NCBI RefSeq assembly: GCF_004216915.1
Contig: NZ_SGXD01000001.1
Span: 1,007,013 to 1,071,012, forward strand
DNA: 64,000 nucleotides
DNA from: Motilibacter rhizosphaerae
Lineage (GTDB): Bacteria; Actinomycetota; Actinomycetes; Motilibacterales; Motilibacteraceae
Direction of reading: 5' to 3'
Shown here: positions 5,410 through 33,083 of the stretch, in pieces
Layout: each line of letters begins with the position of its first letter
Position numbering within the stretch: the first letter of the stretch is position 1
Translations under genes and position numbers: made by a program
The notes under the pieces: model-generated
The model's input: only the letters and a program-made list of their open reading frames with translations
Database searches by the model: none
What the model was told of the DNA's origin: nothing

Positions 5410-6537
5410 ATGCGGCTCCCCGACCTGCCGGAGGACGCCGTGCCCGAGCTGACCGACCTGCTCGCCCCTGTCGCGCAGCTCGACCTCGCGCCGGCGGCGA
5501 CACCGGCCCACCCGCTCCACACCTGCTACGTCCCGGCCGACCGAATGCGCCCCGGGGAGCACCTGCGGTGGGGCGAGGAAGCGCTGGCCCTGCTGGACTC
5601 CTGCGCGCCCGACGAGGAGGCGCTCGCCGCCGCGGTCGGACGCCCCCTCCCGCCCGGCACGTACGCGCGGGTGCGCGAGCTGCTCGCCGTGGCCCCGGTG
5701 CAGGACCTGCGGGTGGACCTGGAGGACGGCTACGGCGTCCGCCCCGACGACGAGGAGGACGCGGCGGTGGAGGCCGCGGTCGCGGCGCTCGCGGAGGCGC
5801 CGCCGCCGTCGTTCGGCCTGCGGGTCAAGTCGCTGGAGCCGGCGACGATGCACCGCGCCTTACGCACGCTCGAGGGCTGGACCGCCGCGCTCGCTGGGGC
5901 AGCCCTCCCCGCCGGCATCGTCACGCTGCCCAAGGCGCAGGACCCGCGGCAGGTCGAGGTCGCCGTTGCGGTGCTGGGCGAGCTGGAGCGCAGGACCGGC
6001 CTGCGGCCCGCGCTCGAGCTCCAGGTCGAGACCGCGCTCGGGGTCGTCGACCGGTCCGGGGCCACGACGGTCGCCGGCCTGCTCGCCGCCGGGCAGGGAA
6101 CGGTGACCGGGATCCACTTCGGGACCTACGACTTCACCGCGTCGCTCGGTATCGCTCCCCAGGAGCAGGCGCTCGACAACCCCGTGGCCGACGCGGCGAA
6201 GGACCTGCTCCAGCTGGTGGCCGCGACGCACGGAGTCCCGGTGAGCGACGGGTCGACCAACCTGCTGCCGGTCGGCGACGCGGGGCAGGTGCGTGGGGTC
6301 TGGGCCGAGCACACCCGCCTCGTCGAGCGTGGGCTGCGGCGCGGGCTGTGGCAGGGCTGGGACATGCACCCCGGGCACCTCGTCTCGCGCTGGACGGCGT
6401 GCACCGCCTTCTTCCTGGCGCGCCTGCCCGAGGTCCGCGAGCGGCTCGCCGGCGGGCGCGCGGGCGTCGCGGACGAGCCGGCGACCGTGCGCATGCTCGA
6501 GGCCTTCGACCGGCGCGCCCGGTCGCTCGGGCTCTGA
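5410..6537 (+). CDS. DUF6986-type HpcH/HpaI-like aldolase
   Basis: 375 residues. The fold family is the phosphoenolpyruvate/pyruvate-binding aldolase group (HpcH/HpaI/citrate lyase beta). Supporting segments are the acidic metal site VQDLRVDLEDGYGVRP, the strand RPALELQVETALGV with its conserved glutamate, GIHFGTYDFTASLGI and WDMHPGHLVSRW. The ATG at 5410 is chosen over the upstream in-frame ATG at 5350, which would overlap the divergent gene. It is transcribed toward uricase with a 75-base gap. In other actinobacteria such genes lie beside ureide-catabolism genes; a role in using glyoxylate or another C2-C4 product of purine breakdown is an inference from context, not shown by the sequence. 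Confidence 0.8.
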   Translation: MRLPDLPEDAVPELTDLLAPVAQLDLAPAATPAHPLHTCYVPADRMRPGEHLRWGEEALALLDSCAPDEEALAAAVGRPLPPGTYARVRELLAVAPVQDLRVDLEDGYGVRPDDEEDAAVEAAVAALAEAPPPSFGLRVKSLEPATMHRALRTLEGWTAALAGAALPAGIVTLPKAQDPRQVEVAVAVLGELERRTGLRPALELQVETALGVVDRSGATTVAGLLAAGQGTVTGIHFGTYDFTASLGIAPQEQALDNPVADAAKDLLQLVAATHGVPVSDGSTNLLPVGDAGQVRGVWAEHTRLVERGLRRGLWQGWDMHPGHLVSRWTACTAFFLARLPEVRERLAGGRAGVADEPATVRMLEAFDRRARSLGL

Positions 6538-6544
6538 GCCGCGC

Positions 6545-6561
6545 GGAAACCGAGCCGAAAC
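6545..6561 (+). promoter_or_regulatory. candidate operator, GGAAAC-N6-GAAAC direct repeat
   Basis: GGAAAC (6545-6550), six bases, then GAAAC (6557-6561), ending 51 bases before the uricase start. The same arrangement recurs at 19750-19766 (reverse orientation, before the permease operon) and, with one change (GGCAAC), at 14185-14201 before the xdh operon. An 11-base repeat period places both half-sites on one DNA face. A-rich words are rare in this DNA, so the recurrence suggests a shared regulator or promoter element. Confidence 0.6.
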
Positions 6562-6612
6562 AGCGGGGACACCGCGGCCGCGCAGACTGGCGGCCAGTTC
6601 CGAGGAGGGCGC

Positions 6613-7503
6613 ATGGGGCACCTGCTGGGCCACCACCAGTACGGCAAGGCGGAGATCCGTGTGGTGCGGCTCTTCCGCGACAGCGACCCGCACCAGATCG
6701 TCGACTACAACGTCTCGGTCGCCGTCTCCGGCGACATCGGCGAGACGTGGCTCTCGGGCGACAACTCGGCGTGCCTGACGACCGACGCGATGAAGAACAC
6801 CGTCAACGCGTTCGCCCGCTCGCAGCCCGACGCCGTGCGCCAGCCGGAGGAGTTCGCCCGCGTCCTCGCCCGCCACTTCGTCGAGACCGTGCCGCAGATC
6901 GGCACGGCCCGCGTCAGCATCGAGTCGTACGGGTGGGACCGGCTCGCCGGCCACCCGCACGCGTTCGCCCGCAGCGGGCGCCTCGTACGGACCTGCAGCG
7001 TCGTCCGCAGCAGCGACGAGGAGTGGGTGACGAGCGGGCTGCGCGACCTCGTCGTGCTCAAGACGACGGACTCGGAGTTCTGGGGGTTCTACACCGACGC
7101 GTACACCACCCTCCCGCCGACGCAGGACAGGATCCTCGCGACCGCAGTGACCGCACAGTGGTGGCACACCCCGGCCGAAGGGCCGCAGGACTGGGACGCG
7201 TCGCACCTCGCCGTCGTCGACGCGCTGACGGAGACGTTCGCCGGGCACCACAGCCTGGCGCTGCAGCAGACGCTGTTCGCGATGGGCGAGGCCGTGCTCG
7301 ACGCGGCCAAGGGTGTCGCGGAGATCCGCCTCTCGATGCCCAACAAGCACCACTTCCTGCTGGACCTCAGCGCCTTCGGCCTCGACAACCCCGGAGAGGT
7401 GTTCCACGCCGACGACCGGCCCTACGGCCTCATCGAGGGGACCGTCCGGCGGGAGGGCGCCGGGGAGCCGGGTCCGGCGTACGACCCCGGGCAGGCGTGG
7501 TAG
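6613..7503 (+). CDS. urate oxidase (uricase)
   Basis: 296 residues, the usual length of cofactor-free uricases. It oxidises urate with O2 to 5-hydroxyisourate and H2O2 in the cytoplasm. The catalytic pair is visible as K12 (HQYGKAEIRV) and T57-D58 (DNSACLTTDAMKNTV). Further family segments are VLKTTDSEFWGFYTD, IRLSMPNKHHFLLDL with the active-site histidine, and the GEVFHADDRPYG end. GAGGAGGGCGC precedes the ATG. It lacks the C-terminal SKL signal of eukaryotic forms. It converges with the hydroxyisourate hydrolase gene one base away, so the next enzyme of the pathway is encoded on the opposite strand. A candidate operator at 6545-6561 lies in its leader. Confidence 0.96.
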   Translation: MGHLLGHHQYGKAEIRVVRLFRDSDPHQIVDYNVSVAVSGDIGETWLSGDNSACLTTDAMKNTVNAFARSQPDAVRQPEEFARVLARHFVETVPQIGTARVSIESYGWDRLAGHPHAFARSGRLVRTCSVVRSSDEEWVTSGLRDLVVLKTTDSEFWGFYTDAYTTLPPTQDRILATAVTAQWWHTPAEGPQDWDASHLAVVDALTETFAGHHSLALQQTLFAMGEAVLDAAKGVAEIRLSMPNKHHFLLDLSAFGLDNPGEVFHADDRPYGLIEGTVRREGAGEPGPAYDPGQAW

Positions 7504-7816: not shown

Positions 7817-9282
7817 GGTCCCTCCAGCAGGCGGCGGACGCGCAGCAGCAGGATCTCCAGCTGCTGCGCGGAGGCCACCTCGAGCTCGGTCTCGGGGTCG
7901 TTGTCGAGCCGCTGCCGCAGCAGGGCCAGCATCTCGTCGGCCGTGCGCCCGCTCGCGCGCACGACGTAGGTGAAGCCGAAGCGCTCCTCGTACGCCGCGT
8001 TGCCCGTCGCGATCTCCGCCAGCACCGCCGTGTCCGCCCCGTCGGCTCCGGCCTGCTCGCGCCGCTCCTGGCTGCCCGCGCGAGGCTTCTCGCCGATCCG
8101 GGGGTGGGCCAGCAGTGCCTCCAGCCGGTCACGGTCGGGGAGGGTGTTCCACACCTCCTCGGCGACCGAGGGGAGCGCGTCGAGGAAGGGCCTGCGACTC
8201 AGCACGTCCTCGACCCACCGCGACGACCCGCACACCGCTGTGAGCTCGCGGCGCAGCGCCGCCTCCGGCAGCGCGTCGAGCCACCGCTCGGCCCACTCGC
8301 GTCGCCCGGCCGCGGTGGGCACGGCGGCGGTGCGCAGCCGCGCGACCCCGCCGTCCGGGTGCACGGTGAGCAGGAGCTCGCGGACCGGCTCGGCGCTGTC
8401 GACCGCGAGGTGGTGGCGCTGGTCCGGCTGCAACGGCGTCGGCGGCACCAGCGGGACCCACTCCTCGCGGGAGCTCCGCCCGCTCAGCTCGGCCGACTCG
8501 GGCGCATTGCCCTTGAAGTGGCGCGTGTCCAGGATGACCTGCCGCAGCGTGCACTCGGTCGCCAGCGTGAGGCGCACCCAGTCCGCTCCCGGACCGCGCC
8601 GCCGCCTCGTCTCCCAGCCCTCGCCCATGCTGCGCGCCTCACCGGGCGCGACGAGGTTGGCCCTGCGCCCGAAGTGCATGTCGCTGCAGGACGGCACGAT
8701 CCCGCCCCACTCCGCGGCCGCGAGGTCGACGGTGAGCCCGTCGGCGAGCCGTGGGTCGGGCAGCGCCGGGCCGTGCACGCGGAGCCGCGCGATGCCGCCG
8801 TCCGGCGCGGCGCGGAGCCGGACGTGGGTGACCGTCCGCGACACCGGCACGGGCAGCGCGTGGAGCGCGTCGGGCTCGAGCGGCTGCGGCGGCAGCAGCT
8901 CCTCCCACTCCGCGGCGAGGACCTCAGAAGGGGAGGGGTTGCCGGGCAGCCAGGTCCCGTCGAGGGCGGCGGACTCCATCTGGTTGCCGGAGAACCACCC
9001 GGTGTCCACGACGACGACCGTCGGGACGCCCGGGGCGCCGAGCCTGATGACCGCCCAGTCGGCCGCGCCGTCGTAGCGCCGCTCCCCGCGGCGGCGCCGC
9101 GTCTCCCACCCGTCCATCCACTGGCCGTGCTCGTCGTAGGTCCCGCGCCGGCTCACCGGCCGGTCGGGCTGCAGCATCCGCTCGGCGGGGCCGAAGAACT
9201 CGTCGCTCACTGCGATGACCGTGCCGCCGAAGCGCGCCCCCGTGAGGTCGGGGTACGCGTCGAGCCGCGGGTCCGTGCTCAT
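7813..9282 (-). CDS. alc: allantoicase fused to OHCU decarboxylase
   Basis: 489-residue bifunctional protein. Residues ~1-325 are an allantoicase (allantoate to ureidoglycolate plus urea) with its two related halves: GARFGGTVIAVSDEFF and DGWETRRRRG in the first, GGIVPSCSDMHFGRRANLV and GEGWETRRRRG in the second. Residues ~330-489 are an OHCU decarboxylase domain (OHCU to S-allantoin) with CGSSRWVEDVLSRRPF and the catalytic AHPRIGEKP motif at about 392-399. The reading frame runs through without a stop. The two joined activities are not consecutive: allantoinase acts between them. ATGA overlaps link it to allantoinase upstream and hydroxyisourate hydrolase downstream. The urea released can feed the urease encoded at 19839-24336. 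Confidence 0.92.
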   Translation of the reverse strand: MSTDPRLDAYPDLTGARFGGTVIAVSDEFFGPAERMLQPDRPVSRRGTYDEHGQWMDGWETRRRRGERRYDGAADWAVIRLGAPGVPTVVVVDTGWFSGNQMESAALDGTWLPGNPSPSEVLAAEWEELLPPQPLEPDALHALPVPVSRTVTHVRLRAAPDGGIARLRVHGPALPDPRLADGLTVDLAAAEWGGIVPSCSDMHFGRRANLVAPGEARSMGEGWETRRRRGPGADWVRLTLATECTLRQVILDTRHFKGNAPESAELSGRSSREEWVPLVPPTPLQPDQRHHLAVDSAEPVRELLLTVHPDGGVARLRTAAVPTAAGRREWAERWLDALPEAALRRELTAVCGSSRWVEDVLSRRPFLDALPSVAEEVWNTLPDRDRLEALLAHPRIGEKPRAGSQERREQAGADGADTAVLAEIATGNAAYEERFGFTYVVRASGRTADEMLALLRQRLDNDPETELEVASAQQLEILLLRVRRLLEGP

Positions 9283-10625
9283 GCGCCCGCCCCGACGGAG
9301 ACGCCACGGTTGAGCAGCAGGCCACGCGGCGGCGCCGCCTGCTCGACGCGCTCGCCGCGGAGCCACGTCTGGGCCACCACACCGGAGAGCCGCTTGCCGT
9401 GCCATGGCGAGATCTTGTGCCGCTGCAGCAGGTCCTCGGCCTTCACCACGAACTCCGCATCGGGGTCCCACACCACGAGGTCCGCGTCCTTCCCCACGTC
9501 GATGCCGCCCTTCTGCGGCAGGCCGGCGATGCGCGCCGGTGTCGCCGACTGCCAGCGCGCCATGTCGACGAGTCCGTAGCCGAGCTGGCGCGCCGCGGTC
9601 CAGACGACGGGGAGGGAGGTCTGGATGCCCGAGATGCCGCCCCACGCCGTACCGAAGTCCCCGGTGTCGAGGGACTTCACCTCCGGCGACGCCGGTGAGT
9701 GGTCCGAGACCATGCAGTCGATGACGCCGTCGCCCAGGGCGCGCCACAGCGCAGCGCGGTTGGCCTCCGAGCGCACGGGGGGCGCGCACTTGCACTGGGT
9801 CGCACCGTCGGGGATGTCCTCTGCGCTCAGCGAGAGGTAGTGCGGGCACGTCTCGACCGTGATCGGCAGCCCTTCGGCGCGGGCGGACCGCAGCAGCGGC
9901 AGGCACTCCTGCGCCGAGAGGTGGAGGATGTGCGCGCGGCCACCGGTCGTGCGGACCGCGTCGATGACCGACTGCACGGCTTCGACCTCGGCCTCGGGAG
10001 GGCGGGAGGCGACGTACGCGGCGTAGCTCCGGCCCTGCGGCGCAGGCGCGCGCTCCAGCGGCCCGGGTGCCTCCGCGTGCACGATCACCGGGACGCCGAG
10101 CCGCGCGGTCACCGCGAGCGCGCGCTCGAGCTCGCCCGGCCCGATGGAGCAGAACTCGTCGACACCGCTCGGCACGAGAAACACCTTGAAGCCACACACA
10201 CCGGCGGCCACGAGCGGCGCGACGGACGACGTGTCGTCGGAGGTGATGCCTCCCCAGAAGGCGACGTCGACGACGACCTGGTCCTGCGCCGCCGCGCGCT
10301 TCTCCGCCAGAGCCCCGACCGTCGTCGTGGCCGGGATGGAGTTCAGCGGCATGTCGACGATGGTCGTGACACCACCGGCGGCAGCGGCGGCGGTGGCCGT
10401 TGCGAAGCCCTCCCACTGCGTACGTCCCGGCTCGTTGACGTGCACGTGGCTGTCGACGAGCCCGGGAGACACGACGAGCCCGGTCACGTCGTGGAGCTCG
10501 ACGTCACGGGGGAGCGGCGCGGTCCCAGAGAGGACCGCGCTGATCGCGCCCTCGTCGATCAGGACCGTCGCCGGGCGCACCCCGGAGGGCAGCACCACAC
10601 GGTCGCTGCGCAGGGCTGTGGTCAC
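9279..10625 (-). CDS. allB: allantoinase
   Basis: 448-residue dihydroorotase-like amidohydrolase that opens allantoin to allantoate. The dinuclear metal site is readable: HxH in LVDSHVHVNEPGRTQWEG, the lysine to be carbamylated in VCGFKVFLVPSGVDEF, histidines in VIVHAEAPG and ILHLSAQE, and the aspartate in CMVSDHSPASPEVK. The start is a GTG at 10625 whose GTGA overlaps the stop of the xanthine dehydrogenase molybdo-subunit. It lies between xdhA and the fused allantoicase, all within one coupled operon. Dihydropyrimidinase or hydantoinase activity is the main alternative in this superfamily, but the context favours allantoin. Confidence 0.94.
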   Translation of the reverse strand: MTTALRSDRVVLPSGVRPATVLIDEGAISAVLSGTAPLPRDVELHDVTGLVVSPGLVDSHVHVNEPGRTQWEGFATATAAAAAGGVTTIVDMPLNSIPATTTVGALAEKRAAAQDQVVVDVAFWGGITSDDTSSVAPLVAAGVCGFKVFLVPSGVDEFCSIGPGELERALAVTARLGVPVIVHAEAPGPLERAPAPQGRSYAAYVASRPPEAEVEAVQSVIDAVRTTGGRAHILHLSAQECLPLLRSARAEGLPITVETCPHYLSLSAEDIPDGATQCKCAPPVRSEANRAALWRALGDGVIDCMVSDHSPASPEVKSLDTGDFGTAWGGISGIQTSLPVVWTAARQLGYGLVDMARWQSATPARIAGLPQKGGIDVGKDADLVVWDPDAEFVVKAEDLLQRHKISPWHGKRLSGVVAQTWLRGERVEQAAPPRGLLLNRGVSVGAGA

Positions 10626-12847
10626 GGCGTCTCCTCCACGACGAGGTCCTCGGGGCGCACCGGCAGGCGGGTCAGCGGGTTCCCGGTCGCCGCCCGCAGC
10701 GCGGCGACGACGGCGGCGGGCGAGCTCACGTGGGGCGCCTCGCCGACGCCCTTCGCGCCGTACGGCGCCCGCGGGTCGGGCACCTCGACCAGGCGGACGT
10801 CGACGTCCGGGACGTCGAGCGTCGTCGGCAGCAGGTAGTCGCCGAAGCCCGGGCCGAGCACGCGACCGCCGTCGAGCACGAGCTCCTCCATCAGCGCGAG
10901 CCCGGCTCCCTGCACGGACCCGCCCTCCACCTGCCCGAGCAGACCGAGCGGGCTCAGCGCGCGGCCGACGTCCTGCGCGGTCGCGAGCTGCACGAGCCGG
11001 GAGGTCCCGAGGTCGAGGTCGACGTCGACGACGGCGCGGTGCGCGACGTACGCGAAGGCGACGTGCGGCGAGCCCTGCCCGCGCGCGTCGAGCCCCGTCG
11101 TGGGGTGGTGGCGGTAGGTCCGTTCGGCGTCCACACCGTCGCCGACGAGCTCGCCGAGCGGGACGGACTCCCCGGCCTCGGAGGCGACCGCCCTGCCCTC
11201 GAGGAGCTCCCACGCCCCAGCGGGTACGCCGCGGCCCGCCGCCCGCACGCGCAGCTCGTCGGCCACGGCGGCGCAGGCCATCCGCACCGCACCGCCGGAC
11301 ACCCAGGTCTGCCGGGCCGCGCTCGTCGAGCCGGCTGAGGCGATCGAGGTGTCCGCCTGCAGCAGCTCGACCTCGTCGACACCGAGCTCGGAGCGGACGA
11401 TCTGGCGCGCCAGCGTGACGAACCCCTGCCCGACCTCGGCGCAGGCGCTGCGCACGACGGCGCGCACGGTGCCGTCCACGACCTCCAGCCGGACGTGCGC
11501 CGTCGAGGGGTCGTCGTAGCCCTCGGAGAACGCAATGTTCTTGTAGCCGAGAGCGATGCCGATGCCGCGGCGCACCCGTGCAGGATCGGCGCAGCGGCCC
11601 TGGCCGCCCGGCAGGAGGAGCTCGTCGGCCTCGTCGTGCCGTGCCGGCAGCGGGATCTGCGCGAGCTCGGCGAGCACCTCGTGGGCGGGTGACGGGTCGA
11701 CGACCTCCTGCCCGGTGGGCAGGCGGTCGCCGGGACGTACGGCGTTGATCTCGCGCAGCTGCAGCGGGTCCATGTCGAGCGCCGCAGCGAGCCGGTCCAT
11801 CTGGGCCTCGTGGCCCGCGCACACCTGCACGACGCCGAACCCGCGCATCGCGCCGTTGGGTGGGTTGTTTGTGCGCACCACCAGGCCCTCGAGGCGCGCG
11901 TTGGGCACGGCGTACGGGCCGGCGGCCATCGTCGTCGCGTTGCCCACGACCGCCCAGGACGAGCTCTGGTACGCGCCACCGTCGAGCAGGATCCGCGCGC
12001 TCACCGAGACGAGGCGGCCGTCGCGCGTCGCCGTGTGCCGGTAGTGCATGCGCGCGGGGTGCCGGTGCACGTGGCCGAGGAACGACTCCTGCCTGGTGTA
12101 CACCATCTTCACGGGCTTGCCGGTGAGCATGGCGAGCAGGCTGCAGTGCACCTGCAGCGTCACGTCCTCCCGGCCGCCGAACGCGCCGCCGACCCCGCCG
12201 AGCGTGACCCGGACGAGCTCGGACGGCAGGGCGAGGCAGTCCGCCACCTGGCGCTGGTCGACGTGGAGCCACTGGGTGGCGACGGTGAGATCGACGCCGC
12301 CGTCGGCCGCCGGGACGGCCAGCGCGGCCTCGGGGGCGAGGAACGCCTGGTCCTGCACGCCGATGACGTAGTCGCCCTCGACCACGACGTCGCCCTCGGC
12401 CTCCGGGTCGCCGTGCTCCACCACCAGGTGGCGGTAGGTGTCGTCCACGGCGAGCTCGGGATCGGTCAGGGGAGCCAGCACCTCCCAGGTCGCGACGACG
12501 GCGCGGGCGCCGGCCTCGGCGGCGGCGCGGGTCTCGGCCGCGACGGCTGCGACGGGCTCGCCGTGGTAGCGCGCGACGTCGCTGACGAAGACCGCCTGAT
12601 CGGTGACATCCAGCCCGTAGCAGGGGTTCCCCGGCACGTCGGCCGAAGTCGCGACGCGGACGACGCCCGCCACCGCGTACGCCGGGGTGACGTCGAGCGC
12701 GACGAGCCGGGCGTGCGGGTGGGGGCAGCGGACGGTCGCCCCGTGCAGCATGCCGGGGACGATGAGGTCGTTGGCGTAGGTGAAGGTTCCCGTCGCCTTG
12801 GCCGTGCCGTCGGGCCGACGAGCGCTCCCGCCGATCCGCTCGGTCAC
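10622..12847 (-). CDS. xdhA: xanthine dehydrogenase, molybdopterin-binding subunit
   Basis: 741-residue molybdenum-cofactor subunit (E. coli-type naming). It hydroxylates hypoxanthine and xanthine to urate with the FAD and Fe-S partners encoded just upstream. Signatures are GGVGGAFGGREDVTLQVH (cofactor contact), GAMRGFGVVQV with the substrate-site arginine, CAEVGQGFVTLARQIV, and AKGVGEAPHVSSPAAV with the catalytic glutamate. The GTG start at 12847 overlaps the Fe-S subunit stop (GTGA). At ~740 residues it is a normal split-subunit form. A close relative acting on another N-heterocycle cannot be excluded, but uricase and allantoin genes in the same cluster make xanthine the best guess. Confidence 0.93.
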   Translation of the reverse strand: MTERIGGSARRPDGTAKATGTFTYANDLIVPGMLHGATVRCPHPHARLVALDVTPAYAVAGVVRVATSADVPGNPCYGLDVTDQAVFVSDVARYHGEPVAAVAAETRAAAEAGARAVVATWEVLAPLTDPELAVDDTYRHLVVEHGDPEAEGDVVVEGDYVIGVQDQAFLAPEAALAVPAADGGVDLTVATQWLHVDQRQVADCLALPSELVRVTLGGVGGAFGGREDVTLQVHCSLLAMLTGKPVKMVYTRQESFLGHVHRHPARMHYRHTATRDGRLVSVSARILLDGGAYQSSSWAVVGNATTMAAGPYAVPNARLEGLVVRTNNPPNGAMRGFGVVQVCAGHEAQMDRLAAALDMDPLQLREINAVRPGDRLPTGQEVVDPSPAHEVLAELAQIPLPARHDEADELLLPGGQGRCADPARVRRGIGIALGYKNIAFSEGYDDPSTAHVRLEVVDGTVRAVVRSACAEVGQGFVTLARQIVRSELGVDEVELLQADTSIASAGSTSAARQTWVSGGAVRMACAAVADELRVRAAGRGVPAGAWELLEGRAVASEAGESVPLGELVGDGVDAERTYRHHPTTGLDARGQGSPHVAFAYVAHRAVVDVDLDLGTSRLVQLATAQDVGRALSPLGLLGQVEGGSVQGAGLALMEELVLDGGRVLGPGFGDYLLPTTLDVPDVDVRLVEVPDPRAPYGAKGVGEAPHVSSPAAVVAALRAATGNPLTRLPVRPEDLVVEETP

Positions 12848-15796: not shown

Positions 15797-17059
15797 TCAA
15801 CGGGGACGGAAGTCCACCGCCTCCTCGTCCCCGTGCCACACGACCCTGCTCTGCGCCGGCTCCGTCCGCGCCACGACCTTCCCGTCGCGCAGCACGGCGA
15901 AGCGGCGCGGCTGCAGCCGCAGCGCCTCCGCCTCCGAGGTGGCGTCGTGCACCACGAGGTCGGCCGGGCCGCCGAGGCGGATGCCGTAGTCCGCGAGCCC
16001 GAGGGCCGCTGCCGGCGCGGTGGTCACCATGGAGACCAGCCGCCGCAGCTCCTCGTCCCCGCTGAGGTGGCCGATGTGGGCGAGCACGAACGCCGCCTGC
16101 ATCGGGTCGCCGGAGCCGAGGGGGTACCACGGGTCCATCACCGAGTCGTGCCCGACCGCGACGTTGACCCCGGCCGCCTGCAGCTCCTTGACCCGGGTGA
16201 GCCCACGGCGCACCGGTCCGGTGTCGAAGCGCCCCTGCAGCACGGCGTTGTCGAGCGGGTTGACCGTCATGTGCAGGCCGGCGCGGGCGATGTTGCGGAT
16301 GAGGCGGTACGCGTAGGCCGCGCCGTAGGAGCCCATCGCCGTGGTGTGGCTGGCGGTGACCCGCCCGGACATGCCGCGCTTGATCGTCTCGGCGGCCATG
16401 ACCTCGACGAAGCGCGCGTGGTCGTCGTCGGTCTCGTCGCAGTGGATGTCGACCCGCAGCCCGTGCTCCTCGGCGAGCGCGAAGGCGAACTGCACGCTCG
16501 CCACACCGTCCTCGCGGGTGAGCTCGTAGTGCGGGATGCCCCCGACGACGTCGGCGCCGAGCGCGACCGCCTTGCGCATCAGCGCTTCCCCGCCCGCGAA
16601 GCCGAGGACGCCCTGCTGCGGGAAGGCGACGATCTGCAGGTCGACGAGCCCCCGCGCCTCCTCGCGCAGCTCGACCAGTGCCCGCAGCGCGCGGAGCTCG
16701 GGGTCGCAGACGTCGACGTGCGTGCGGACGTGCTGGACGCCGTGGGCGAGCTGCCAGCGGAGGACCTGCCGCGTACGCGCCAGCACGTCGTCGACGGAGA
16801 GGGTGGCGACCCGCTCGGCCCAGACGGCGATCCCCTCGAACAGCGAGCCGGAGACGTTGGGCCGGGGCTGGCCGACGGTGAGCACGGCATCGAGGTGGAT
16901 GTGCGGCTCGACGAGCGGCGGGGTCACCAGCCGGCCGGCCAGGTCGAGGACCTGCGCCGGACTGCCGTCGGGCTCGACGAACCTGCCGTCCTGCACGGCG
17001 AGGTCGACGAGCTCCGGGACGCCCGGGAGGCGGGCGCCCCGGAGGAGCAGGTCGCTCAC
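15797..17059 (-). CDS. codA: cytosine deaminase-type amidohydrolase
   Basis: 420 residues, the length of CodA. It is expected to deaminate cytosine to uracil; CodA relatives also act on isoguanine, 5-methylcytosine or creatinine. Metal and catalytic residues: H53 and H55 ([11 protein letters not shown]), [13 protein letters not shown] (histidine and proton-shuttle glutamate), [13 protein letters not shown] (histidine), and the aspartate in [18 protein letters not shown]. The last segment is close to the CodA signature. It is the third gene of an operon with an NCS1 permease and a Rieske oxygenase; its ATG overlaps the oxygenase stop by four bases. Uracil is the likely product, but the exact base is uncertain. 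Confidence 0.88.
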
Positions 17060-18270
17060 GCTGCGGCCCGGACGAACGCCAGCAGTTCGCGGCGGAGGGC
17101 CACGCCGAGGCGGTCAGCCCGCACGTGCATCTCGTCCTTCAGGTCGAGCGGGAGCACCCGCAGGGTCAGCGTCTCCTGCAGCGCGAGGTCCTCGGCGAGG
17201 ACGGCCTGCTCGAAGGCGACCTCGTTGGCGACGACCTGGGGCGTCGGCTCGCCCAGCCCGCCGATGTCGTGCAGCAGCATCTTGGTGTAGATCCGCGTGC
17301 TGTCCGCGGACTCCGGCTGGGCGAAGAAGAGGATCGTCTTCACCGCGCCCACGTCGAGCTCCTCGAGGCGCAGCACCAGCTGGAACGGCGCGCGGTAGAC
17401 GTAGGTCGCCCGTCGGCGCTGGCGCAGCGGACGCAAGCCCGCCGCCACGCCGGGGTCCTCGGGGTTCTCGAACCACTGCTCCTGCACGCTGCGGAAGCCG
17501 CCGGGCTCGGGCAGGACGTCGTACGCCTCGACGACCGTCGCCGCCTCGGAGCCGAAGGTCCCCGTGTGCACGAACGGGAAGTGCGCGACGTCGAGGAAGT
17601 TGTCCGCGACGAACCCGGCCGGTGCTGGTGTCCGGTCCGGCGGGAGCCAGGCACCGGCGTACGCCGCGTCCTCCGCATCGGGCTCGTCGAACAGCGGCAC
17701 GAGCGGTTCCTCTGGCGCGAGCCAGACGAGCCCCCAGCGCTCCGCCAGCGCGTACGGCTCGGGCTCCGCGCGCAGCCCGGTCCCCGACCGGGAGAGGGAC
17801 CACGTCCGGCCGAGCAGCCGCACCTCGTGCGCGGCACCGACCTCGGTGGAGAGCGCGATCGGGTGCCAGGCGCGCAGCAGCGCGGGATCCTCGTTGCCCA
17901 GCCCGGGGATCTCCTGCTCCGCCTCCGTGTCCTCCGCGTCGAGCAGGACCTCGACCGCGCCGTCCACCTCGCGGACCGGCGGCCCGGGCGGCAGCGACGC
18001 CCGAGGGGGTACGCGGTCGTGCCCGAGCGACGGGACGAGCGTGCACGTGCCGGCCGCGTCGAACTCCCATCCGTGGTAGGCGCACTGCAGCCGGCCGCCC
18101 GCGACGCTGCCGGTCACCAGGGGTACGCGGCGGTGCGGGCAGAGCGCCGGGAGCAGCGTCGCCGGGCCGTCCGGCTCGAGCCGCACGAGCACCCACTCCC
18201 GCCCGCCGACGCGTACCTGCCGCGGCTCGGTCCCCACGTCGGCGCTGCGGGCGACCGGCGTCCAGCTCAC
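17056..18270 (-). CDS. Rieske-type non-heme iron oxygenase
   Basis: 404 residues. The N-terminal Rieske domain binds a [2Fe-2S] cluster through C44, H46, C63 and H66 (CPHRR and CAYHGWEF). The C-terminal catalytic domain has [17 protein letters not shown], with H230 and H235 as mononuclear iron ligands and N224/D227 nearby. Between them, residues ~130-195 ([37 protein letters not shown]) look like a second, degenerate Rieske fold lacking ligands. No reductase or ferredoxin gene is adjacent. It is coupled by 4-base overlaps to an NCS1 permease and a CodA-like deaminase. This context suggests hydroxylation or N-demethylation of a purine or pyrimidine; the substrate is unknown. Confidence 0.88.
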
Positions 18271-19691
18271 GCCGGCAGCCGGACCGTCCGCCGCGCCTCC
18301 ACGGTGGCGATCGCGGCGTACAGCAGGGCGGCGACGGCGAAGCCCACCTCGAAGGTCAGGTCGCCGAGCGCGGGGTGGTGGCTCGGCAGCGGAGCCTTGT
18401 ACTTCGTCTGGTTGCTGAACAGCCCGATCGAGACCGCCATGCCGACGGCCATGGCCACCCAGCCCGCGAAGGGGTTGTGGCGCTGGTTGAACAGCAGGCC
18501 AGCCACCTGCTGGCGGCGGCGCAGGAACCAGTCCGTGAAGTACACGCCGAGCCACGGCCCGATCCAGTAGGCGATGACGAGCAGGAAGTCCTCGTACTTC
18601 TCCCCGGCGTCGTCGAGCGAGGTCAGCGCGAGGATGAAGCCGATCGTCCCGAAGCCCACGGCGACGATCGCGCGGCGCAGCGAGAGCGGGAGCTTGATGC
18701 CCAGGGCGAGGAACGAGATCGCGCCGGAGTAGATGTTGATGGCGTTGGCCGAGACAGCGCCGAGCGCGATGCAGAGCAGCGTGAGCTTCCCCAGCCACGT
18801 CGGCAGGTGCGCGACGAACTGCGAGGTCGGGCTGCCGTCCCCCGCACCGCCGATCGTCATGGAGGCGGCACCGGCGATCTCGAGGACCGTGCAGGAGATG
18901 AAGACCCCCAGCCCGGCGTACACCGCGACCTTGGCCTTGCTCACGTCGCGCGGCAGGTAGCGGGTGTAGTCGGCCGCGTAGGGGTTCCAGCCCGCGGCGT
19001 AGCCGAAGGTCGCACCCAGCAGCACGAGCCAGCCGCCGATGCCGCCGTGGTGTCCGGAAGCGCCGGGGTGGGACTTGCTGAGGATGACGACGGTCGTCAC
19101 CGCGAAGACGATGCCGAGCACGGGGAACGCCCAGCGCTCGAAGGCGTGGACCATGTTGTGCCCGAGGAACGCCACGGCCAGCTGGGCGATCACCACGACG
19201 ACGAGGCAGAGCCAGTCGGGCAGGCTCGTCAGCGAGGCCAGGGCGAGCGCCCCGCTGACGCTGTTGACCGCGAACCAGCCGATGCCGGCCGTGACGGCGT
19301 TGAGCCCGGCGGGGAGGAGGTTGCCGAACCAGCCGAACGGGATCCGGCTGAGGATCATCTGCGGCACGCCGTACTCCGGCCCGCGCGCGGACAGGATGCC
19401 CTGCGTGACCCCGCCCAGCGCGGAGCCGACGACGATCGCGGAGGCCGCCTCCCAGAACGTCAGCCCGAAGAACGCGACGCCGATGACGCCGACGAAGACG
19501 GTCGCGAACTCGAGGTTCGGCGACATCCAGGTCCAGAGCAGCTGGACGGGCGTCCCGTGCCGCTCGCCGGGGGGCACGGCCTCCGCGCCCCCGGGCTCGA
19601 CGGCGGCGATCCTCGTGCCGTACGAGCCCTCCCGCAGCTCCAGCAGGTCCACCCCGGCCAGGTCGCTCCCCGGCGCAGCCGTCGCGGTCAT
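18267..19691 (-). CDS. NCS1-family nucleobase permease
   Basis: 474 residues, about 12 membrane segments. Nucleobase:cation symporter-1 family importers take up cytosine, purines, uracil, hydantoin or allantoin. Family segments are [15 protein letters not shown] near the N terminus, [33 protein letters not shown] and AIAYWIGP-like text ([19 protein letters not shown]). The ATG at 19691 has GAGGAGGACCG in front. It leads the permease-Rieske-codA operon (GTGA overlap with the oxygenase) and diverges from the urease operon. The 19750-19766 repeat is 59 bases upstream. Cytosine is suggested by codA in the operon. Confidence 0.92.
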
Positions 19692-25105: not shown

Positions 25106-26140
25106 ATGAGCGCCGTGCTCCTGGTCAAGGCCGCCACCGCGGGCCCGGACGACGTCGATGCGCTGAAGCTGCTCGCCGCCGAGGGCCTCGGCGTCGACGA
25201 CGTCATCGCCGTCGCGGCCAAGACCGAGGGCAACGGCTGCGTCAACGACTTCAGCCGCACCCTCGGCGCGCGGGCCTGGCACGACGTCCTGCCCGCCGCC
25301 GCGGTCACCGTCATGTCGGGCGGGACCGAGGGCGTGCTGAGCCCGCACGCGACGCTGGTCGTGCGCGCACCGTGGCGTACGGGCCTGCGCGGCGCGTCGG
25401 CGTCCACCCCGCCGATCCCGAAGGCGGTGCTGGGCCGCCGCCCGCAGGTCGACGCCGTGGCCCGTACGGTCGGCGAGGCGGTCGCGGACGCGGGCCTCCG
25501 CCCGCAGGACGTCCACCTGGTGCTGGTGAAGTGCCCGCTGCTGACCTCCGAGGACGTCGCCGCGTGCCGCGCTGCCGGCACGGAGCCGGTCACGACCGAC
25601 ACCTACGAGTCGATGGCCCGCTCGCGCTCAGCGGCTGCCCTGGGGGTCGCGCTGGCCCTGGGGGAGCGGACGGGCGAGGAGGTCGACGCCGCGCTCGCGG
25701 CCGGTGGCTGGGACGCCTGGTCGGGCGTCGCCTCGTGCAGCTCCGGCGCGGAGATCGCCGACTGCCAGGTGCTGGTCCTGGGCAGCGACCCGGCTGGCGG
25801 TCCGCTGCGCATGGCGCACACCGTCCTGCACGACGCCATCGACGCGGGCGCGGTGCTGTCCCTGCTCGCCGAGCTCGGTGCCGGGCCCGCCGGCGAGGGC
25901 GCGGAGGTCGTGCACGCCTTCGCCAAGGCGGAGGCGGCGCCCGACGGCCTCGTGCGTGGCCGCCGCCACACGATGCTCACCGACTCCGACCTCCACTCCA
26001 CCCGCCACGCCCGTGCGGCGGTGGGCGGCCTGCTCGCCGGCCTCGTCGGCGACCCCTGCCTGTACGTCTCAGGCGGTGCCGAGAACCAGGGACCGCCGGG
26101 GGGCGGCCCCCTGGCCCTCGTCGTCCGCGCCTCCAGCTGA
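25106..26140 (+). CDS. ring-opening amidohydrolase (cyanurate/barbiturate hydrolase family)
   Basis: 344 residues of the cyanuric acid hydrolase/barbiturase family, which hydrolyses an amide in a six-membered N-heterocycle using three internal repeats with Lys-Ser pairs. Repeat 1: K39 ([15 protein letters not shown]) and S71 ([12 protein letters not shown]). Repeat 2: K142 ([11 protein letters not shown]) with the serine cluster S210-S213 ([10 protein letters not shown]). Repeat 3: K274 (AFAKAEA) and S322 ([16 protein letters not shown]). VKCPLLT and the final loop resemble cyanurate hydrolases more than the second paralogue at 31950 does. First gene of the GntR-controlled operon. Whether the substrate is barbiturate, cyanurate or another ring cannot be read from sequence. 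Confidence 0.88.
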
Positions 26141-29705: not shown

Positions 29706-30496
29706 GCGGACCGCTGCTGGACGTCGGGTTCCTCGCGACGGGTGTCGCGTCCGGAGCGCTGTCCGCGGCGTTCGGGGTCGGCGGCGCTGCGCTGTCGACG
29801 CCGGCGATCCGCGCGCTCGGGGTCGCGCCCCTGCTGGCCGTGGGAACGACGCTGCCGTCGGTCATCCCGAGCGCGGTCGTGGGAACTTTGCGCTACAGCC
29901 GCGCGGGGCTCGTCGACTGGGCTGCCGTCGTGCGGATCGTGCCCTCCGGGACGGTCGCGGCGGTCGCCGGCTCGCTGCTCTCGCACGCGCTGCCCGGCGG
30001 CGGCCACTGGCTGATGGTCCTGACCGCGCTCGTGCTCGGCTGGATGGCGCTGCGCCTCGCGACGCCGCGCCCTGCTCGGCCGACCGCGCCCGGGGACACG
30101 CTGGTACGCAGCAGGATCTCGAGCCCCGCCGTCGCCGCGACCGCCTCGGGCGTGGGTGCGGGCCTGCTCTCGGGGCTGCTCGGCCTCGGCGGTGGCGTGG
30201 TGCTCGTGCCCGCGCTGACCGAGCTGCTCGGCATGACCCTGCACCGCGCGGTTGCGACCTCGCTCGCCTGCGTGGGCCTGCTCGCGGTGCCGAGCACGAT
30301 CACGCACGGCCTGGTCGGCGACATCGACTGGACCGTGGCGCTGCTCCTCACCGTCGGGGTCGTGCCCGGTGCCCGGATCGGGTCCGCGCTCGCGCTCCGG
30401 GCGTCCGAGCGGCGGCTGCGTACGGTCGTCGCGGCGTTCCTCGGCCTCGTCGCGGTCGTCTACGGGGCGGGCGAGCTCGCCGCCCTCCTGCCGTGA
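29702..30496 (+). CDS. TauE/SafE-family membrane protein
   Basis: 264 residues, about eight helices in two related halves (GVASGALSAAFGVGGAALSTP and GVGAGLLSGLLGLGGGVVLVP). TauE/SafE proteins are thought to move small organic acids, sulfite or sulfoacetate, often as exporters. Inside a ring-opening operon an exporter of a carboxylate end product such as malonate is a reasonable inference, but nothing in the sequence fixes the substrate. GTG 29702 overlaps the permease stop; the gene ends in a GTGA overlap with the amidase gene. Confidence 0.88.
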   Translation: MSGPLLDVGFLATGVASGALSAAFGVGGAALSTPAIRALGVAPLLAVGTTLPSVIPSAVVGTLRYSRAGLVDWAAVVRIVPSGTVAAVAGSLLSHALPGGGHWLMVLTALVLGWMALRLATPRPARPTAPGDTLVRSRISSPAVAATASGVGAGLLSGLLGLGGGVVLVPALTELLGMTLHRAVATSLACVGLLAVPSTITHGLVGDIDWTVALLLTVGVVPGARIGSALALRASERRLRTVVAAFLGLVAVVYGAGELAALLP

Positions 30497-31938
30497 GCGC
30501 GCTCGCCGGTCTGCCGGCCGTCGAGCTGGCCCGCCTCGTGCGCGAGCGGGAGGTGACCGTGCCGCAGGTCGTCGAGGACCACCTCGCGCGCATCGACGAG
30601 ACGGATGGCGTGCTGCACGCGTTCGTCGCCGTACGCGCCGAGGCCGTCCGCGCGGAGGCGCGCGACGCCCAGCTGCGCCTCGACGCCGGGGAGCCGGTCG
30701 GGCCGCTGCACGGCGTGCCGTTCACGGCCAAGGACGTCCTCGCCACCAGCGACCCCGTCGCCCGCGCCGGCAGCCTGGCCGCCCCTCCCGAGCCGACCCC
30801 GGACGCCACCGCGGTGCAGCGGATGCGCGCCGCCGGCGCCCTGCTGCTCGGCAAGACCGCCTGCCCCGAGCTCGCGTTCGGCGTCGACACGGTCTCGCCC
30901 GTGTCCGGTGCGACTGGCAGCCCTTGGGGTGAGGGGCTCACCCCAGGAGGCTCGAGCGGTGGCGAGGCCGCCGCCGTCGCGAGCGGCATGAGCGCGGTGG
31001 GCCTCGGCACCGACTACGGCGGCTCGCTGCGCTGGCCCGCGGCCTGCGTCGGCATCCTCGCCGTGCGGCCGACGGTCGGGCTCGTCCCCGGGACCGGGCA
31101 GCTGCCGGGCCTCCCTGGTCCGGGCGGTCGCCGGCTGCCTGACCCGTGGAGCCTGCAGGGCGCGCTGCAGGTCGTCGGCCCGCTGGCGCGGACGGTCGAC
31201 GACCTCGCGCTCGCGCTCGACGTCCTGGCCGGGCCCGACGGTTGGGACCCCGCGGTGCGGGCAGCTGCGCCGGTCGTCCCTCCCGGGCCCGGCGTCGAGG
31301 GCCTGCGGGTCGGCTGGGTGGCGCGCGAGGACTCGACGCCCGTACGCCGTGACGTCGCCGTGCTCGTCGCCCGCGCGGTCGCCCTGCTGGGCTCCGCCGG
31401 TGCCGAGGTCGAGCACCGCCCCGGGCTGCTGGACGGCGCTCACGCGGCGTACAACGCGGTCCGCGACGCGGACGGGCTCGACGACCTGCGCCGCTGGGTG
31501 TCCGGCCGGGAGCACCTGCTCGGCCCCGAGCTGCAGCTCGCGCTGGCGCGTCCGCAGCCCTTGCGCAGCGCGTACGCCGAGGCCTGGGCCGCGGCGGCGG
31601 AGCCCCGCCAGCGCATCCTCGCCGCGCTCGGTGCCGGTGACGAGCCGGGGCTGGACCTGCTCGTCTGCCCCGTCGCCCCGGTGCCGGCCTTCCGCCGTGG
31701 GGTGCCCGTGGAGGTCGAGGGCCAGCGCCTCGCGGGCTTCGACCTCATGGCCCTCTGCCGCGCCGTCACGCTCCCGGGGCTGCCGAGCCTCTCCGTCCCC
31801 GTCGGCCTCTCCGAGGACGGGCTGCCCGTCTCCGTCCAGCTCGTCGCCCGGCCGTACGCCGAACCCGTCCTGCTCGCCGCCGCCCGCGTCCTCACCGCTG
31901 CGGTGGGACCGCTGCTGCCGCCTCCGCCCGCGTCCTGA
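30493..31938 (+). CDS. amidase-signature family hydrolase
   Basis: 481 residues. The Ser-cisSer-Lys triad is clear: K80 (HGVPFTAKDVLAT), cis-serine in PGGSSGGEAAAVASG (S154/S155) and nucleophile S178 (GTDYGGSLRWPAA). The conserved lysine-rich segment LLLGKTACPELAFG follows the family. Neighbouring ring-opening hydrolases suggest it cleaves an acyclic ureide: ureidomalonate (to urea and malonate) if the ring is barbiturate, or a biuret/carboxybiuret-type product if it is cyanurate. No AtzG-like small partner gene is adjacent, which weighs slightly against an AtzE role. Confidence 0.88.
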   Translation: MSALAGLPAVELARLVREREVTVPQVVEDHLARIDETDGVLHAFVAVRAEAVRAEARDAQLRLDAGEPVGPLHGVPFTAKDVLATSDPVARAGSLAAPPEPTPDATAVQRMRAAGALLLGKTACPELAFGVDTVSPVSGATGSPWGEGLTPGGSSGGEAAAVASGMSAVGLGTDYGGSLRWPAACVGILAVRPTVGLVPGTGQLPGLPGPGGRRLPDPWSLQGALQVVGPLARTVDDLALALDVLAGPDGWDPAVRAAAPVVPPGPGVEGLRVGWVAREDSTPVRRDVAVLVARAVALLGSAGAEVEHRPGLLDGAHAAYNAVRDADGLDDLRRWVSGREHLLGPELQLALARPQPLRSAYAEAWAAAAEPRQRILAALGAGDEPGLDLLVCPVAPVPAFRRGVPVEVEGQRLAGFDLMALCRAVTLPGLPSLSVPVGLSEDGLPVSVQLVARPYAEPVLLAAARVLTAAVGPLLPPPPAS

Positions 31939-31949
31939 AGGAGCTCCCC

Positions 31950-33083
31950 GTGCTCGTGCCCCGCGCCACCCTGACCGTCTGCCCCATGCGGACGCCCAAC
32001 GACGTCTCCGCGGTCGAGAAGGCCCTCGCCGCGCTGGACCCCGCCTCCGTCGTCGCGGTCGTCGCGAAGAGCGAGGGGTCGGGCCTGCCCAACGACTACG
32101 GACGGCTGTTCGCCGAGGTGTCGCTGCGCCAGGCGGTCGCCGACGCCCGGGGCGTCGACGCCGCGACGGTCGCGGACGAGGTCAGCATGATCGTCTCCGG
32201 TGGCTCGCCCGGGGTCATCAGCCCGCACGCGACGATCGTCACGCAGGAGTGGGTCGAGGTCGCGGAAGCGCCGGTCGCCTCCGACGGCGGCGGGCTGGTG
32301 GTCGGCCGCGCGCACACCGAGGAGATCCTGCCCGAGGAGATCGGCCGGGTCGCCCAGGTCGACAAGGTGGCGGACGCCGTACGCCGCGCGATGGCCTCCG
32401 CGGGCGTCACCTCCGCCGCCGACGTCCACCTGGTCATGGCGAAGGGCCCAGCCCTCTCGACCGCGGGGATCGCCGACGCCGCCGCCCGCGGGCACGACGT
32501 CGTCACGCTCGACCCGGGCATCGGGCCGATGGGCTCGATGTGCTGGTCGAACGACGGCGCCGCCCTGGGTGTGGCCGTCGCGCTCGGCGAGGTCCCGCGC
32601 GACGCGGTGACGAACGACGTCATCCGCAAGGACTTCTCGCTGTTCAGCGAGGTCGCTGCGACGTCGGCGGGCGGCGAGAAGCGGCGGGGCGAGGTGCTCA
32701 TCCTCGCGAACCGGCCGGATGCGCTCTCCGACGGCCGGGTCGGTCACGGGATCACGCAGAACCTCGCTGACACGTCGGGGATCCTCACGGCGCTGCGCAC
32801 CGCCGGACTCGAGTTCGACTGCTGCCCCAGCGACTCCGACCGCGAGCGCATCGTGCAGGTGTTCGCTAAGTTCGTGCTGCCAGGCGATCCCTCGCTCGAC
32901 GGCGCCCATCTCACGGTGCTCGACGACCACGAGGCGCACCACGTGGCGAAGGCCGTCGGCGGCACCCTCGTCGTCTCGGTGACGGGGAAGCCGATGTGCT
33001 TCGTCTCGGGCGGCGAGCGCAACTCGCACATGGGCCCGCCGGGGGGCAACCCCGTGGCAGCCGTGGTGGCGCGCGCGTCCTGA
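31950..33083 (+). CDS. second, divergent ring-opening amidohydrolase
   Basis: 377 residues, same three-repeat family as the 25106 gene but clearly divergent. Repeat 1: K40 (VVAKSEGSGLPNDYGR) and S83 (IVSGGSPGVISPH). Repeat 2: a lysine in HLVMAKGPALST and a serine in EVAATSAGGEKRRG. Repeat 3: a lysine in VQVFAKFVLPGD and a serine in CFVSGGERNSHMGPPGGNP. The end loop has an added SHM between the acidic residue and GPPGG, and substrate-contact segments differ, so a different ring or a later intermediate is likely. GTG 31950 has AAGGAG six bases upstream. Last gene of the operon. Confidence 0.87.
   Translation: MLVPRATLTVCPMRTPNDVSAVEKALAALDPASVVAVVAKSEGSGLPNDYGRLFAEVSLRQAVADARGVDAATVADEVSMIVSGGSPGVISPHATIVTQEWVEVAEAPVASDGGGLVVGRAHTEEILPEEIGRVAQVDKVADAVRRAMASAGVTSAADVHLVMAKGPALSTAGIADAAARGHDVVTLDPGIGPMGSMCWSNDGAALGVAVALGEVPRDAVTNDVIRKDFSLFSEVAATSAGGEKRRGEVLILANRPDALSDGRVGHGITQNLADTSGILTALRTAGLEFDCCPSDSDRERIVQVFAKFVLPGDPSLDGAHLTVLDDHEAHHVAKAVGGTLVVSVTGKPMCFVSGGERNSHMGPPGGNPVAAVVARAS

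Follow-up and report, generated by a model that had tools for sequence, protein, structure and literature searches.

The actinobacterium Motilibacter rhizosphaerae encodes, in a 64,000-nucleotide stretch of contig NZ_SGXD01000001.1 (hereafter the window), a module of three genes for an NCS1-family permease, a Rieske oxygenase and a deaminase similar to the cytosine deaminase CodA. The new finding is that the oxygenase carries an added N-terminal Rieske domain together with an emptied original copy of that domain, an architecture that occurs within one clade. With regard to function, the oxygenase is likely to oxidise the nucleobase, or a close analogue of it, that is handled by the permease and the deaminase, and a substrate from the 5-methylcytosine/thymine branch is somewhat favoured. 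Coordinates of the features are given in Table 1.

Inspection of the module revealed that its genes are translationally coupled by four-base overlaps, as had been stated in the original prediction made from the window sequence, with GTGA at both junctions. A CodA-linked oxygenase was found in three of 394 genomes of the class (the window genome, G031 and G272) and in three further genomes, namely G411, Winogradskya consettensis and a groundwater metagenome-assembled genome (MAG). The scan of contigs was performed with generic Rieske patterns that under-sample the family, so the genomes with the CodA-linked form number at least six. In all six of these actinobacterial genomes the oxygenase gene adjoins the CodA-like gene and the NCS1 gene is close, and because of this clustering the linkage of the three genes exceeds chance. 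The CodA/Rieske overlap was also observed in G031 (locus L038) and Winogradskya (L058) and was absent from G272 (L039) and the MAG (L059); the NCS1/Rieske overlap was present only in the window among the six genomes. All three genes run in the same direction in the window, the NCS1 gene is opposite to the other two in G031, G272, G411 (L177) and the MAG, and one gene sits between the CodA and NCS1 genes in Winogradskya. The permease matched the Transp_cyt_pur family and scored 153 with the NCBIfam ncs1 model, below its cut-off of 353; a similarity search among solved structures for the substrate of this permease gave no match.

The CodA-like protein passed the cut-off of the NCBIfam cytosine deaminase model (487.3 bits, cut-off 483). 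Alignment of the window protein and other module members showed that 10 of the 11 tested catalytic or base-binding positions are identical to those of Escherichia coli CodA, the sole difference being the replacement of Asp314 by serine. This serine was present in the window, G031, G272, Winogradskya, MAG, G001, G075, G264 and G320 proteins (the sequences read at this position comprised all module members but the G411 copy), and aspartate occupies the position in other actinobacterial CodAs. A Klebsiella 5-methylcytosine deaminase has serine at the same place, and changing the residue in CodA gives 5-methylcytosine activity (PMC6186785). The second Klebsiella codA also encodes serine at position 314. 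On the basis of this residue, the deaminase of the module likely belongs to the 5-methylcytosine class, and its product would be thymine and not uracil. The Klebsiella Kpn00632-type deaminase likewise keeps the other catalytic residues; however, it is 48% identical to the window protein, and its gene lies next to those of a codB-type permease and a PucR-type regulator and is not accompanied by an oxygenase gene. Examination of the annotation around the Klebsiella codA loci revealed no neighboring Rieske gene.

The oxygenase showed clear matches to the Rieske family PF00355 (65.7 bits, cut-off 20.3) and to the catalytic family VanA_C, PF19112 (82.5 bits, cut-off 23.5). The N-terminal Rieske domain has the CxH...CxxH cluster motif, and its four Cys and His residues (Table 1) are nearly invariant among the aligned oxygenases. 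The iron ligands and the bridging aspartate of the catalytic domain are invariant in the 32 sequences aligned. Between both domains, residues 126-185 align with positions 7-135 of a relative that has one Rieske domain; the alignment contains a gap of about 55 residues, and the residues skipped are those carrying both cluster motifs. The segment still resembles the beginning of ordinary relatives (N-x-D-P-A-L...WHPVA...LLG), and its strands are visible in an AlphaFold2 model. As a measure of the altered layout, the cluster motif and the iron motif are separated by 180 residues in the window protein and by 178-190 in its family, and by 100-122 residues in 123 of the 140 frames of oxygenases that were scanned, a set that comes mostly from one search, includes repeats and is not a census. 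Judged from its sequence, the window protein thus departs from the usual one-Rieske layout, the departure concerning the layout and not the fold or the iron sites.

In the tree, double-Rieske proteins formed a single clade (support 0.974) whose sister group consists of single-Rieske actinobacterial proteins (0.993). Because the N-terminal domain clusters with the Rieske domains found in these relatives, internal duplication would explain its origin better than capture of a foreign domain. The AlphaFold2 monomer was predicted with a pLDDT (predicted local distance difference test) of 89.5 and a pTM (predicted template-modeling score) of 0.83. It superposes on SxtT, the caffeine demethylase NdmA and dicamba monooxygenase; with VIA-align, residues 1-403 of the model matched residues 10-331 of SxtT over 310 residues at 2.3-2.4 Å (Z 32.8). 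The match is compatible with the new Rieske domain occupying the canonical place, a placement that we infer and do not take as established, because sequences with a single Rieske domain make up most of the alignment and could bias the prediction. Furthermore, each of the six CodA-linked members has E304, K311 and H334. These residues hardly occur in relatives, where position 311 is mostly Asn and position 334 mostly Asp or Asn, and they may be a sign of a changed substrate. A duplicated cluster domain with an emptied original, conserved in one clade that spans several genera, is relevant to the question of how the cluster-to-iron distance is kept during evolution.

Other unusual forms of the oxygenase were also observed. 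Double-Rieske oxygenases with no adjoining CodA or NCS1 gene, and with two-component regulatory genes nearby, occur in L040, L060 and L061 (Blastococcus and a relative). A search of plasmids for close relatives gave no match at E 1e-25. Asaia sp. W19 (L092) encodes a Rieske-only protein (9009-9788, minus strand) and, in divergent orientation, a VanA_C catalytic protein whose own Rieske domain is hollow (9995-10894, plus strand), next to genes for a deaminase, a nucleoside-type ABC (ATP-binding cassette) transporter and an 8-oxoguanine-deaminase-like protein; this split version looks like an independent hollowing. In an Acidimicrobiaceae MAG (L130), a catalytic-type frame with no cluster segment (6033-6875, plus strand) has an NMT1-type transporter and another frame for a Rieske oxygenase as neighbors; it could be the result of decay or of an assembly fault.

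The placing of the Rieske enzyme in nucleobase metabolism by the original prediction held when the neighborhoods of its homologs were compared. The single-Rieske sister proteins are encoded in a conserved cluster, syntenic with the window, that contains xanthine dehydrogenase, allantoin-pathway, NMT1-type ABC transporter and urease genes. Of further relatives, an oxygenase gene in L065 (6992-8122) overlaps a putative uracil phosphoribosyltransferase gene (8119-8751), another in L062 (9980-11143) directly precedes a gene of the same type (11180-11821), and that of L064 precedes an NCS1 gene. In addition, relatives in L066, L067, L069, L071 and L104 have genes for adenine deaminase or for nucleoside-type ABC transporters as neighbors. 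These neighbor names were assigned by reading the sequences, the NCS1 gene being also matched by similarity. From the neighbors, the oxygenase can be assigned to a nucleobase clade, and the aromatic pathways that would have argued otherwise were not found around the homologs.

Some observations on these clusters deserve mention. The purine cluster of L041-L057 also encodes a protein similar to adenine deaminase, with a good score confined to its C-terminal domain. In the regions L104 5912-8692, L069 5256-7614 and L071 1-1790, oxygenase relatives stand next to putative adenine deaminase genes, and some of them also next to nucleoside-type ABC transporters; these relatives may be uncharacterised hypoxanthine hydroxylases. 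A role of the Rieske protein as the missing urate oxidase of the single-Rieske purine clusters was rejected, since uricase was present in 13 of 13 such genomes tested.

These observations led us to a proposal for the module. The NCS1 permease would import a 5-substituted cytosine, most likely 5-methylcytosine, and the Ser314-type CodA would deaminate it to thymine. The Rieske enzyme would then insert oxygen into the same base, most likely at the 5-methyl group, and convert thymine into 5-hydroxymethyluracil. Electrons would be supplied by an unlinked reductase; no reductase was seen linked to the window Rieske gene, and a genome-wide search for one was not made. The oxygenase itself would have arisen in the nucleobase-linked Rieske clade through duplication of the Rieske domain that it already had; the cluster would reside in the new N-terminal copy, and the old one would have been hollowed. 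The substrate, the oxidation site, the order of the steps and the electron donor are what we infer here from the observed gene order, linkage, residue patterns, domain architecture and tree. The whole chain of uptake of 5-methylcytosine, deamination to thymine and Rieske oxidation at the methyl group is put forward tentatively. The fuller claim, that the epigenetic base 5-methylcytosine is catabolised with thymine methyl oxidation by a Rieske enzyme of duplicated and emptied architecture and not by a TET-like 2-oxoglutarate (2OG) oxygenase, is on balance doubtful.

Two observations favor the methyl group as the site of oxidation. The closest solved enzymes (SxtT/GxtA, NdmA and dicamba monooxygenase) act on sp3 carbons by hydroxylation or demethylation, and a distant relative of thymine dioxygenase is encoded next to the NCS1 gene in four genomes, of which two have the Rieske gene as well. 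This 2OG-Fe(II) oxygenase is distantly related to the fungal thymine dioxygenase (E 4.6e-26), has the DIOX_N and 2OG-FeII_Oxy domains (L165 protein) and contains an HTDF motif compatible with replacement of Tyr217 by Phe; no close copy was found in G264. The fungal thymine-7-hydroxylase catalyses the same reaction as proposed here for the Rieske enzyme on thymine, although it is a 2OG enzyme unrelated to the Rieske protein. Several points weigh against the proposal. The 2OG neighbor has Gln at the apparent Arg190 position, located through an alignment with 6jyv and not with thymine hydroxylase itself; its orthology to thymine-7-hydroxylase is doubtful on this account, and because Arg190 seems missing its support for methyl oxidation is only suggestive. 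Moreover, G001, from the genus of the window genome, and G075 have Ser-type CodA and NCS1 genes with no adjoining oxygenase, from which the oxygenase looks like an addition to a CodA/NCS1 pair. The ancestral context of the clade is purine metabolism and HpxD acts on ring carbons, so that methyl oxidation needs a changed chemistry. Finally, the analysis identified no gene that would act downstream on 5-hydroxymethyluracil or iso-orotate.

The main rival in chemical terms is a route from adenine through isoguanine to xanthine, because the ancestral chemistry was more likely oxidation of the purine ring. The Rieske enzyme would hydroxylate C2 of adenine to give isoguanine, and CodA would convert the latter into xanthine, feeding the purine island near the window copy, in which an 8-oxoguanine-deaminase-type gene, uricase and xanthine dehydrogenase were recognised (the allantoin-pathway names in this island were assigned by reading the sequences). 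The position of oxygenase relatives beside adenine deaminase, xanthine dehydrogenase and purine-type transporters, the annotation of E. coli CodA as a cytosine/isoguanine deaminase and the ring hydroxylation of purines by the Rieske enzyme HpxD are all consistent with this route. However, it leaves the conserved Ser314 unexplained, a close relative of the window xanthine dehydrogenase exists only in the window genome among module genomes, and G031, G272 and the MAG lack uricase. We regard the purine route as unlikely.

Oxidation at C6 of the deaminated pyrimidine, giving barbiturate or 5-methylbarbiturate for ring opening and urease, is less probable still. The original prediction had proposed a path from cytosine through uracil to barbiturate, and the ring-opening hydrolases (two PF09663 proteins), amidase and urease that it listed do lie within 15 kb of the window copy. 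The path itself was not supported, as all module members examined have a Ser314-type deaminase. The known barbiturase pathway (uracil dehydrogenase, barbiturase and ureidomalonase) resembles the window in its PF09663 and amidase genes; nevertheless, both PF09663 proteins lie outside the module operon, and the barbiturase-type Gln is present in neither. At the position of Arg188 of cyanuric acid hydrolase (CAH), located by the K156+32 spacing and an alignment with the Moorella protein, the first protein has Arg and the second Asn, and one of them passes the cut-off for cyanuric acid amidohydrolase (Table 1). The urease and purine genes beside the window copy belong to a synteny shared by genomes with neither a CodA nor an NCS1 gene at that place. 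Linkage with barbiturase is not conserved either, PF09663 being absent from G031, G272 and Winogradskya and placed on a different contig in the MAG, so that the barbiturate reading appears weakly supported. RutA, of the alternative uracil route, gave no match above cut-off in the 10 genomes tested.

A corynebacterial CodA has creatinine deaminase activity. Conversion of creatinine by CodA into N-methylhydantoin, which the Rieske enzyme would N-demethylate or hydroxylate, or demethylation of N-methylated bases, is as improbable as the C6 route: the fold of the oxygenase is near that of NdmA (Z 31.0) and a dimethylglycine-dehydrogenase-type gene and an aldehyde dehydrogenase gene lie nearby in G272 and G411, but the other tested base-binding residues of CodA are those of the cytosine enzyme, and the window, L038, L058 and L059 do not share the methyl-compound genes.

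Table 1. Features of the window and of related loci (window positions unless a locus is named)
Feature	Position	Strand	Remarks
NCS1-family nucleobase permease	18267..19691	-	474 aa; PF02133, 138.7 bits
Double-Rieske non-heme iron oxygenase	17056..18270	-	404 aa; GTG start within NCS1 stop
N-terminal Rieske domain, intact	17941..18270	-	residues 1-110; C44, H46, C63, H66 (alignment)
Original Rieske domain, hollowed	17716..17895	-	residues 126-185; strands kept, cluster-binding segment lost
Catalytic domain	17059..17715	-	residues 186-404; iron ligands H230, H235, D361; bridging D227
CodA-like deaminase	15797..17059	-	420 aa; Ser at E. coli Asp314; Amidohydro_3
NCS1/Rieske overlap	18267..18270	-	GTGA; stop/start shared
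Rieske/CodA overlap	17056..17059	-	GTGA; stop/start shared
Urease genes	~19.8-24.3 kb		within 15 kb of module
Ring-opening amidohydrolase, cyanuric acid hydrolase type	25106..26140	+	NF052395, 380.6 bits (cut-off 360); outside conserved module
Amidase	30493-31938		within 15 kb of module
Second ring-opening amidohydrolase	31950..33083	+	like 5hy0; outside conserved module
2OG-Fe(II) oxygenase	L039 3420-4391; L177 6595-7566; L165 7008-7979; L178 1-593	+ (all)	mutual identity 71-79%

Rieske oxidation of a nucleobase is not new in itself, because the Rieske system HpxDE of Klebsiella is described as acting on hypoxanthine and xanthine (PMC7373994). HpxD is encoded, as the window oxygenase is, with base transport and purine genes; in contrast, it has a single Rieske domain and a purine substrate and works with the partner reductase HpxE as a molybdenum-independent hydroxylase. 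Orthology to HpxD was rejected, as this protein falls outside the clade in the tree and is 31-32% identical (31% over the catalytic part). The saxitoxin-pathway hydroxylases SxtT/GxtA are the best fold match to the oxygenase model and perform C-H hydroxylation, but they share about 21-27% identity with it and have a single Rieske domain and an unrelated substrate and gene context. Similarly, the methylxanthine N-demethylases NdmA/NdmB are VanA_C-type monooxygenases acting on a purine, with a close fold (Z about 30-31); they differ by their single Rieske domain and their identity of 19-26%, and a partial NdmA sequence falls outside the oxygenase clade, the fold match being by itself not decisive for an NdmA-type assignment. 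Our literature search, which covered few subscription journals, found no paper joining a Rieske enzyme with barbiturase or 5-methylcytosine deaminase. To our knowledge, the bacterial use of 5-methylcytosine beyond thymine is poorly described. The module constitutes a small, testable gene set with a named strain, Winogradskya consettensis NBRC 14913. Apart from the module, the two ring-opening amidohydrolases, an NMT1-type transporter and the amidase of the window possibly serve the use of cyanuric acid or a related triazine.

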